Shown here one piece after another: positions 5,439 through 8,076 of a DNA stretch of 53,798 nucleotides (positions are counted from its first letter, which is position 1; each line of letters opens with the position of its first letter). Source of the DNA: an uncultured cyanobacterium (GTDB taxonomy: Bacteria > Cyanobacteriota > Cyanobacteriia > PCC-6307 > Cyanobiaceae). The notes below the pieces were generated by a model. That model saw only the letters and a list, made by a program, of their open reading frames with translations, was not told where the DNA came from and made no database searches. The translations under genes and the position numbers were made by a program. The stretch is from contig CAIOCZ010000100.1 in NCBI GenBank assembly GCA_903856805.1, positions 1-53,798 on the forward strand, given 5' to 3'.

Positions 5439-5678
5439 TCAGCCCAGGCCCCGCAACAGCACCACGGCGTCCCGATTCAGCAACACCAACGGCGCGTTGG
5501 GATCCTGGCTGAGGGCCAGGAATTCACTGTCTTGCCACTTCAACGTTCCCTCCAGCTCCACCCCTCCCCGCATGCGCACGGTCACCACGGTGGCGGTGCG
5601 GATCAAATCCTGCAGATGGCGCACGCTGGGGAGTGAGGTGTCGAGCCGCGGTCCCCGTTTTTCAAAGTAACTCTGCAT
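5439..5678 (-). CDS. hfq: Hfq-like Sm-fold RNA-binding protein (cyanobacterial type)
   Basis: A 79-residue protein starting at the ATG at 5678. The order TSLPSVRHLQDLI, then RGGVELEGTLKWQD, then a terminal NRDAVVLL strand matches the short cyanobacterial Hfq family, which has SLPSVR near the N terminus and a WQD motif in Sm1. Cyanobacterial Hfq keeps the Sm fold and hexamer but has poorly conserved RNA-binding residues. In Synechocystis it acts in phototaxis and type IV pilus function. Its position next to dapF is the usual cyanobacterial neighbourhood and supports the call. The frame stays open far upstream across dapF, but only the portion from 5678 looks like a protein. Confidence 0.85.
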   Translation of the reverse strand: MQSYFEKRGPRLDTSLPSVRHLQDLIRTATVVTVRMRGGVELEGTLKWQDSEFLALSQDPNAPLVLLNRDAVVLLRGLG

Positions 5679-5708: not shown

Positions 5709-6860
5709 GTGCTGCAGTTCAGTAAATACCAGGGCCTGGGCAATGATTTCCTTCTGCTCGACGGCCGAGATCTGGCCGAGCCTGACCAGGCCTTCGGGCT
5801 CACCCCCGCGCTGGTGCAGCGGCTCTGCGACCGCCGCTTCGGCGTCGGCGGTGACGGCGTGATCCTGGCCCTGCCACCGCGGGAGGGGGGGGAGTTGCGC
5901 ATGCGCATCTTCAACGCCGATGGCAGTGAGCCGGAGATGTGTGGCAATGGCATCCGCTGCCTGGCCCGTTTCCTGGCCGATAGCGATGGCGACGAGCCCG
6001 GCCGTCGCTGGCAGATCGAAACCCTGGCGGGTCGGATCGTGCCGGAGCTGCAGGCCGATGGCCAGATCCGGGTGGACATGGGGACGCCGTTCCTCCAACC
6101 CGAGGCGGTGCCCACCACCCTGGCCGTCGGTCCGGAGGGCCTGCCCCAGGGGGAGCTGGAGGTGGGCGGTCAGCGCCTGGCCGTGGCCGCCGCCGGGATG
6201 GGCAACCCCCATGTGGTGATCCCCGTGGCAGACGTGGCGGCCATCGATCTGGCGACCCTCGGCGCCGCCCTGGAGGTGCATCCGGCCTTCCCCGCGCGCA
6301 CCAATGTCCATTTTGTCCAGGTCCTCTCCCCCACCCAGCTGGTGATGCGCGTCTGGGAGCGGGGGGCCGGCCCCACCCTGGCCTGCGGCACCGGGGCCTG
6401 CGCCACCCTCGTGGCCTGCCACCGCCTTGGCCTCTGCGAAGCAGCCGCTTGCCTGGACTTGCCCGGGGGGCCGCTCTGGATCCACTGGGACGCCGCCAGT
6501 GACCATGTGTTCATGACCGGTCCAGCCGAGGCGGTGTTCGATGCCGTGGTGGCTCCTTCTCTGCTGGGGGACATCACGGACGCCCCCGCGGAGGCCCCCC
6601 CTGAGGCTGGGCCCGGGGTCAGCCTCGAAGTCAAACCAGAAGCTGCCCCCAACGGCGCTGTTGATTGCGCGATCGACTGCGCTGTGGCCTGCGTGAACGG
6701 TTGCCTCCGACCGGAGGCCTGCGCCAGCGCCGAGGCCCGCGCCCGGGTGGCGGAGTTGCTCAGCGGCCATTCGCTCGATGACCTGCTGGCGATCGCCACC
6801 AACTCCCAGGACCAGCGGGCCCGGGCCCGCTCCGATCGGGATGGGGATCCGGCGCGCTGA
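5709..6860 (+). CDS. dapF: Diaminopimelate epimerase with a long cysteine-bearing C-terminal tail
   Basis: Converts LL- to meso-diaminopimelate for lysine and peptidoglycan synthesis. The start is a GTG at 5709. The two catalytic cysteines are visible: Cys78 in EMCGNGIRC and Cys226 in ACGTGAC. The epimerase fold is complete by about residue 283, the usual family length. About 100 extra residues follow. First comes an Ala/Pro/Glu-rich linker, then a segment with five cysteines at residues 320, 324, 328, 332 and 338, then a likely helix around LLSGHSLDDLLAIA, and a charged Arg/Asp end. The tail is in frame and uses the same codon style, so it is not an obvious frameshift. The gene is divergent from hfq, and the next gene starts one base after its stop. 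Confidence 0.93.
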   Translation: MLQFSKYQGLGNDFLLLDGRDLAEPDQAFGLTPALVQRLCDRRFGVGGDGVILALPPREGGELRMRIFNADGSEPEMCGNGIRCLARFLADSDGDEPGRRWQIETLAGRIVPELQADGQIRVDMGTPFLQPEAVPTTLAVGPEGLPQGELEVGGQRLAVAAAGMGNPHVVIPVADVAAIDLATLGAALEVHPAFPARTNVHFVQVLSPTQLVMRVWERGAGPTLACGTGACATLVACHRLGLCEAAACLDLPGGPLWIHWDAASDHVFMTGPAEAVFDAVVAPSLLGDITDAPAEAPPEAGPGVSLEVKPEAAPNGAVDCAIDCAVACVNGCLRPEACASAEARARVAELLSGHSLDDLLAIATNSQDQRARARSDRDGDPAR

Positions 6861-6861
6861 G

Positions 6862-8076
6862 ATGGCGCCGCCTCCCGGTTTGGCTCTCTCCGGCTACCTC
6901 GATGCCGCCGCCACCACTCCCCCGGCGGCCGCGGTGCTGGCGGCCATGGTCGAGGCCCAGGAGCTCGCCTGGGCCAATCCCTCCAGTACCCATGGCTTCG
7001 GTCTGGCGGCGGCCGAGGCCTTGGAGCGGAGTCGGGAGCGGATCGCGACCCTGCTCGGGACGGTGGCCGATCAGGTGATCCTGTGTTCCGGGGGCAGCGA
7101 AGCCATCCATCTGGCCCTGTTGGGGCTGGCTGCCGATCTGGAGCCAGGGCGCCTGGTGATCTCCACCGTGGAGCATCCCGCCACCCTGGCGGCGGCGGCC
7201 CAGTTGGAGCGCCGCGGTTGGGAGGTGGCTGCCGTGCCGGTGGATCGGCGTGGCGTGGTCGATCTCGCTGCCCTGCCCGCCCTGTTGCGGCCGCCCACCC
7301 GGCTGATGTCCGTGATCTGGGGTCAGAACGAGGTGGGCACCCTGCAACCGATCAACGCGATCGGTCGCCTCTGCCGTGAGGCCGGTGTGCTGCTCCATGT
7401 CGATGCGGTTCAGGTGGTGGGGCACCTGCCGGTGCGGCTGGATCAGCTCCCGGTGGACCTGCTCAGTTGTGCCGCCCACAAACTCCAGGGACCCCGGGGG
7501 ATCGGTGCCCTGCTGCTACGGCCGGGGCTGCGCCTGAGCCCCCTGATCGGCGGAGGAGGGCAGGAGGGGGGCCGACGGGGCGGCACGGAACCGGTGGTGC
7601 TGGCCGTCGGTTTTGCTCAGGCCCTGGCCCTTGCCCAGGAACGGCTCCAGGCCCACGACGGCCACGACCCCTTGGGCCCCCTGAGGGATGGGCTGCTGGA
7701 GCGGCTGCTGGCGATGGAGGGCATCCGCCTCAGTGGCCCTGCCGTGGACGACCCCTTGGGCCGCCTTCCCCATCACCTCAGCCTGCTGGTGTCAGGCGCC
7801 AGCGGCCAGCCGATGTCGGGCCGGCAGTTGGTGCGGGCGCTGTGGGGGGAGGGTTATGCCGTCAGCAGTGGCTCCGCCTGCAGCAGTGGGCGTGGCGCCG
7901 GCGCTGGCGGGCCTGCCCCCAGCCCAGTGTTGCTGGCCCTTGGCTACGGCGCGGCCGAGGCCGCCAGTGGTCTGCGTTTCAGCCTGGGGCCCTGGCTGGG
8001 CCCCAGCGACCTCGAGGGGGTGCCGGCGGCCCTGGCCCGGGCGCGGGACCGGCTGGGCCGCACCGGTGCTGGGTAG
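6862..8076 (+). CDS. Cysteine desulfurase (IscS/NifS family)
   Basis: PLP enzyme that removes sulfur from cysteine and holds it as a persulfide for Fe-S clusters and other thio-cofactors. It has about 404 residues from the ATG at 6862. The family order is present: YLDAAATTPP at the N terminus, NPSSTHGFG, the SGGSEAIHLAL substrate loop, the HVDAVQ aspartate, the PLP lysine in CAAHKLQGPRG, and the catalytic cysteine in SGSACSSGRG. The ATG lies one base after the dapF stop, so translation is probably coupled. Group I (IscS/NifS) rather than SufS is likely from the extended SACSSGRG loop. The exact paralogue is not certain. Confidence 0.92.
   Translation: MAPPPGLALSGYLDAAATTPPAAAVLAAMVEAQELAWANPSSTHGFGLAAAEALERSRERIATLLGTVADQVILCSGGSEAIHLALLGLAADLEPGRLVISTVEHPATLAAAAQLERRGWEVAAVPVDRRGVVDLAALPALLRPPTRLMSVIWGQNEVGTLQPINAIGRLCREAGVLLHVDAVQVVGHLPVRLDQLPVDLLSCAAHKLQGPRGIGALLLRPGLRLSPLIGGGGQEGGRRGGTEPVVLAVGFAQALALAQERLQAHDGHDPLGPLRDGLLERLLAMEGIRLSGPAVDDPLGRLPHHLSLLVSGASGQPMSGRQLVRALWGEGYAVSSGSACSSGRGAGAGGPAPSPVLLALGYGAAEAASGLRFSLGPWLGPSDLEGVPAALARARDRLGRTGAG

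Follow-up and report, generated by a model that had tools for sequence, protein, structure and literature searches.

The C-terminal tail of a cyanobacterial DapF matches a small four-cysteine protein encoded separately in most sampled genomes of its class

In DapF of Corynebacterium glutamicum a reversible disulfide between the two catalytic cysteines acts as a switch, according to the accessible part of the report (PMC5296763). This shows that thiols can in principle regulate DapF, but the switch described in that part consists of the catalytic cysteines and not of a tail such as the one carried by the DapF analyzed in this work. The DapF of Anabaena, as far as the available portion of its description goes (PMC12039745), has no tail and is a normal enzyme of about 280 residues. 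The DNA stretch of 53,798 nucleotides studied here (the window) encodes a DapF whose core gave a cyanobacterial DapF, 9mro, as the top Foldseek match. This Anabaena structure shares with the window protein the core fold and the positions of the catalytic cysteines, and the solved chain of 279 residues, as given in the accessible part of the source, ends near the start of the linker that precedes the tail in the window DapF.

The dapF ORF of the window (5709-6860, + strand) starts with GTG, comprises a coding part at 5709-6857 followed by the TGA stop codon at 6858-6860, and encodes 383 amino acids. The TIGR00652 model matched residues 3-281 with 275.4 bits, versus a cut-off of 114.65, and the match spans model positions 2-268 of 270. 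Since it stops at residue 281, the protein has a surplus of about 100 residues, in agreement with the first-pass annotation, which also listed cysteines at 320, 324, 328, 332 and 338; all five were found at these positions in the translated ORF. By family match the core is an intact epimerase, with predicted activity. C78 and C226, invariant among 55 aligned DapFs (alignment A5), are the expected catalytic pair and, judging from the motif context and the accessible part of PMC12039745, probably correspond to C75 and C224 of the Anabaena enzyme. The features of the locus are the following:

5439..5678, - strand: cyanobacterial Hfq, divergent to dapF (NF047718, 62.5 bits, cut-off 52; PF21979, 61 bits, cut-off 27)
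5709..6551, + strand: DapF catalytic core, residues 1-281 (TIGR00652, 275.4 bits; PF01678; Foldseek)
6552..6665, + strand: Ala/Pro-rich linker, residues 282-319, mostly predicted disordered (pLDDT below 50 at 297-321; low identity)
6666..6668, + strand: codon of C320, an extra, unconserved cysteine (2 of 136 distinct domains with the motif)
6672..6857, + strand: fused four-cysteine small-protein domain, residues 322-383 (profile A3 match, 1.6e-21)
6678..6722, + strand: C-x3-C-x3-C-x5-C signature, conserved in fused and separate domains
6678-6680, 6690-6692, 6702-6704 and 6720-6722, + strand: signature codons of C324, C328, C332 and C338, respectively
6729..6842, + strand: two predicted helices, residues 341-353 and 356-378 (AlphaFold2; kept in Cys-less relatives)
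6862..8076, + strand: NifS/IscS-type cysteine desulfurase (PF00266, 205.9 bits; TIGR03402, 292.3 bits; gene order)

The AlphaFold2 model, built on 55 aligned proteins, was confident for the core, had pLDDT below 50 at residues 297-321 of the linker region, and placed helices at 324-330, 341-353 and 356-378. The latter two account for the helix that had been expected behind the cysteines. The suggestion that the thiols would line up on one face of a helix was not supported: only a short helix opens the cysteine stretch, and the confidence of the models is low there (block pLDDT 57 and 73). No frameshift was apparent at the end of the epimerase domain, the tail being conserved in frame among relatives; an origin of the tail as a frameshift or read-through artefact was ruled out by this conservation together with the dN/dS pattern of the relatives.

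Amino acid identity and dN/dS were determined for 27 of 30 loci of the genus, with the window included and three loci being unparsable; the 351 pairs yielded 351, 325 and 351 usable dN/dS comparisons for the core, the linker and the tail domain, respectively. The core showed a mean identity of 0.82 and a median dN/dS of 0.18. For the linker, of 27-68 residues, the corresponding values were 0.34 and 0.71, and for the tail domain 0.71 and 0.35. The protein ends in a distinct conserved domain of approximately 60 residues, set behind a fast-evolving linker, and the median dN/dS of 0.35 indicates that in the window's genus this domain is under purifying selection.

Profile A3, constructed from 17 fused and separate sequences with the window tail among its rows, had matches in 234 of the 291 sampled genomes of the class, and a single query tail, from a record labelled Pseudanabaenaceae, in 227 of the 291. 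Independently of A3, the tail from another family matched the window at 9.1e-6. Separate short ORFs matched the fused tail with E values down to 3e-24 among the matches listed; outside the fused families the matches listed were short ORFs, and the separate form has about 65-80 amino acids. Its typical sequence is (I/V)NCAxxCxNGCxLGxxCP...SLDxML..A...PPxWVxPE, and the window domain carries both parts that define the family, the C-x3-C-x3-C-x5-C signature and the helical SLDxM-type stretch. The genome of the window gave a single profile match, within DapF, with no second copy among the matches listed. These sequence matches identify the tail as a fused version of a small protein with four cysteines, for which most sampled genomes of the class have a gene of its own. 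With this wide separate occurrence, an exclusive tie of the tail to DapF is not supported.

The search of the phylum gave matches in 86 of 244 genomes, all of them, among the matches listed, in the class of the window. The domain is present in the f13 genomes, which we take to be Gloeobacter, with a longer loop ahead of the fourth cysteine. It is absent from the four genomes of g51, presumably Synechocystis-like, which may explain why the protein has escaped study. Pfam, NCBIfam and PHROGs contained no family matching the domain (best E 0.02, 0.076 and 0.069, each in one of the members scanned), and a profile search of PDB gave at best E 0.62 to the U2AF splicing factor, taken as chance; no curated Fe-S scaffold, carrier or zinc-finger family matched in these four collections. 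The tail fold had no match in PDB and five in BFVD, all with E of 6.6 or worse. The domain was not found in the plasmids and phages searched, and the only match in viral contigs, 11 residues long, was taken as chance. Peptide strings of the family occurred in no paper, and word searches, judged by titles and the beginnings of abstracts, yielded nothing on the tail. It thus apparently exposes a cyanobacterial small-protein family, undescribed as far as the literature searches went. An odd tail becomes in this way a testable family, present in 234 of 291 class genomes and invisible to Pfam, NCBIfam and PHROGs.

The signature, in the form C-x3-C-x3-C-x5/6-C, was present in 90 of 102 distinct fused domains and in all 46 distinct separate domains, the latter coming from the best-scoring loci; it was also invariant in 53 aligned tails, which had been selected for its presence. 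The proposed conservation of all five cysteines was therefore borne out for C324, C328, C332 and C338 and not for C320, which is shared by just 2 of the 136 distinct sequences with the motif, the one from the window and L180. The fused domains contained four cysteines (n=86), five (4), three (1, with masked letters), one (3) or none (8). Except for the sequence with masked letters, the 12 fused domains lacking the motif are thus Cys-less versions with one cysteine or none, and these 11 still possess the helical part, SLDxM...L..RT. Cys-less tails and tails of freely varying length had been named in advance as evidence against a conserved tail. The linker does vary freely in length and the 11 relatives have lost the cysteines, but the length of the domain is steady. 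The tails concerned are those of L078, L080, L087, L091-L096, L257 and L258, several of them from marine Synechococcus and Ca. S. spongiarum.

Among weaker loci, 23 of 30 were returned (forward strand only), with three fused domains without the motif and 20 separate proteins, of which 16 had the standard motif, three had four cysteines with a longer loop and one was Cys-free. The last, L290 of G116, is a separate protein that has the helical part and no cysteines. Between the third and the fourth cysteine the loop comprises x5, x6 or x10, with the cysteines retained; in the Gloeobacter-like separate proteins L286, L287 and L289 it has ten or more residues, not five. The all-or-none pattern of the cysteines argues for one joint site and suggests that the four would act together, in metal binding or disulfide formation. 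From their joint loss and the variable loop we infer that a metal ion fits best, and paired disulfides next.

In f1, the family of the window, 80 of 151 sampled genomes matched the profile, and the best matches lay in frames of at least 328 codons, except in G428 (133 codons). The same tail was sought in fusions elsewhere and was found on DapF also in f10, in all four genomes with a match. In both f11 genomes, presumably S. elongatus (one contig of 2,696,255 bp), the domain is encoded by a small ORF whose ATG lies 12 nt past the dapF stop codon (TAG in one, TAA in the other) in the same frame; a TTG start immediately behind the dapF stop is also possible. The junctions lie at 5911-5928 of L146 and, on the minus strand, around 5200-5220 of L221.

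The gene following dapF in the window had been named a cysteine desulfurase one base away, and this is what was found: its ATG at 6862 is a single base past the TGA, and the product, a class-V aminotransferase, gives its top scores with NifS/DndA/IscS cysteine desulfurase models. The best of them, TIGR03402 (NifS), reached 292.3 bits, under its cut-off of 530.75; as the score stays under the cut-off for every cysteine desulfurase model shown, NCBIfam does not name the subfamily. A desulfurase gene follows the fused gene in all 27 f1 loci tested, drawn from 66, and in f11 it begins about 50 nt beyond the small ORF. In f10 it is the next gene in G086 and G122; in G051 the two genes are about 1.5 kb apart, and in G100 no such gene was found within 17 kb. 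Genes for DUF1995 and DUF4330 proteins are located downstream in the window and, named by eye, also in the f11 loci and in G051 of f10. An Hfq-like ORF occupies the equivalent place in f11 and also in three loci of f10.

In the RpoB tree f1 and f11 were joined with support of 99/96, and f1, f11 and f10 with 88/97, a node that was not starred. In a wider RpoB tree a split with SH-aLRT of 97 set f1, f11, f10 and G049 apart from the remaining 63 rows; G049, the sister of f10 in this tree, has a tail-less DapF (L247). The DapF trees give no preference for or against one origin of the linkage (p-AU 0.22-0.43) and group f1 with f11 at only 45/23. Because of the RpoB trees and the common gene order one ancestral juxtaposition is favoured, and the simplest account of these sequence data would be this juxtaposition followed by two fusions, or by one fusion and a split in f11. 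Three independent fusions had been considered as a strong Rosetta-stone argument, which was withdrawn, the RpoB trees and the common gene order being against it.

Outside this clade the gene order is different. Altogether 104 domain loci were surveyed, most with about 1.5 kb on each side and with some genomes counted repeatedly. dapF was present in 10 of them, all from f1, f10 and f11, and a desulfurase gene in eight, all from these DapF-linked families. Neighbours of the separate gene were lineage-specific, none recurring from one family to another; by eye, they included a bioF-like gene in f12 and dnaK/dnaJ-like genes mostly in f15.

The reading preferred here, to which we assign a probability of roughly 45 %, is that the tail would be a small adaptor with one joint cysteine site, fused to DapF and acting mainly elsewhere. 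The four-cysteine site would stand ahead of a helical hairpin contacting a partner, and would most likely bind a single metal ion, Zn being more probable than an Fe-S cluster; otherwise it may form a redox-switched pair of disulfides. Tethering would keep the adaptor on DapF, an enzyme with catalytic thiols that are sensitive to oxidation in a different species, or merely co-produce the two. Tolerated joint production is preferred because the other lineages examined have the protein in free form, encoded at a distance from dapF, and this free occurrence argues that the main target is not DapF. Contrary to this, the retention of the fusion in two lineages could reflect a real function in DapF.

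Such a function is the core of an alternative that we regard as unlikely, in which the tail would be a redox or thiol-protection module exchanging disulfides with, or signalling to, the catalytic cysteines of DapF, so that DAP supply follows the light-dark redox state. The four conserved cysteines, the fact that in three families the domain is fused to dapF or adjoins it in the same frame, and the disulfide switching of the C. glutamicum enzyme, as described in the accessible part of PMC5296763, would all be consistent with it. The restriction of dapF to 10 of the 104 domain loci, all in f1, f10 and f11, with no linkage elsewhere, argues against it, as do the Cys-free fused tails and the normal enzyme without a tail in Anabaena (available part of PMC12039745).

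Domain-less genomes include some that we take to be Prochlorococcus and an Acaryochloris-like genus, and for this reason the phycobilisome linker PF00427 was searched for. It was detected, with E up to 1e-10, in 270 of the 291 genomes, and among 14 control genomes S. elongatus was the sole match. The domain was absent from all 21 genomes without a linker match and from all seven with a single match, and it was present in 234 of the 263 genomes with two or more matches and missing in 29. The changes were then counted on the wider RpoB tree, which holds 85 genomes, the fragmentary G282, G300, G309 and G312 having been excluded from the 89 that were searched; genomes with a single linker match were also scored as lacking the phycobilisome. 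The antenna trait changed five times, one of the changes depending on G302, which is 74 % complete. Three to four independent pairs agreed with the domain, none disagreed and one to two were silent (sign test p 0.125-0.25). The domain itself changed 18 times, partly because the tree is enriched for domain-less genomes, and its rates are for the same reason not population rates. With the tree taken into account, an association of the domain with the phycobilisome antenna is suggestive only. In one f24 genus (G065 and G260) a single rluD-like gene separates the domain gene from cpcBA and rod linkers, all named by eye, in these neighbourhoods:

L325, 8178-11200: cpc neighbourhood of f24, names by eye
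L326, 1922-4958: cpc neighbourhood of f24, names by eye

It is rather improbable that the small protein is a phycobilisome helper acting on phycobiliproteins and present on DapF by an accident of gene order. The absence of the domain from all 28 genomes with at most one linker match, against its presence in 234 of the 263 others, and the cpc neighbourhood would speak for such a helper. On the other side stand the 29 domain-less genomes with two or more linker matches, the mere five trait changes and the origin of the idea after inspection of the profile; within the set of loci searched, the cpc neighbourhood turned up in a single genus, and it could be due to chance. The broader version, an ancient, nearly pan-cyanobacterial four-cysteine adaptor for phycobilisome assembly, repair or turnover, which the clade of the window has permanently tethered to DapF, a diaminopimelate epimerase serving lysine and cell-wall synthesis, is improbable; if true, it would couple the supply of DAP to the status of the antenna or of nitrogen via the tethered adaptor. 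The antenna profile nevertheless supplies a concrete first hypothesis on function.

A sulfur or Fe-S link to the neighbouring desulfurase, proposed from the window, also appears improbable. The domain would then accept sulfur from this enzyme or carry its cluster, an idea that fits the 27 of 27 f1 loci, G086 and G122 of f10, the 1.5-kb distance in G051 and the f11 order, in which the separate gene sits between dapF and the desulfurase gene. The conserved neighbourhood is thus real inside the clade, but it was absent elsewhere (8 of the 104 domain loci, exclusively in DapF-linked families) and within 17 kb in G100. The domain matches no scaffold or carrier family, and its Cys-less versions still adjoin the desulfurase gene (L277, L284 and L285). 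The sulfur-transfer proposal is weak. A neutral fusion, in which a neighbouring gene joined to dapF would have been kept by drift and be functionless in DapF, is very unlikely, since the purifying selection on the tail domain (median dN/dS 0.35 in the window's genus) and the all-or-none cysteines oppose it, in spite of the fast linker, the loss of cysteines in several lineages and the tails decayed or shortened in G108 and G281 (L254 and L255).

The preferred reading, a small adaptor acting mainly outside DapF, can be set beside two described small proteins, and the DapF fusion together with the in-frame separate ORF of the S. elongatus type provides natural constructs for probing the function of the domain. 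NblD (NsiR6), a protein of 66 amino acids involved in phycobilisome degradation, is like the domain small, cyanobacterial and equipped with four conserved cysteines, and was the first guess for its identity. Its cysteines form two pairs, the first being CPVC (CX2C) in the accessible part of PMC5126843, and the C-x3-C-x3-C-x5-C spacing of the window domain ruled this identity out, by motif comparison only. Membership in CP12 was rejected as well: the accessible part of PMC7760959 places two cysteines at each end of that protein, unlike the window domain, in which all four lie within 15 residues. As a small four-cysteine protein, CP12 still resembles the domain, and it illustrates what a small redox adaptor can look like.
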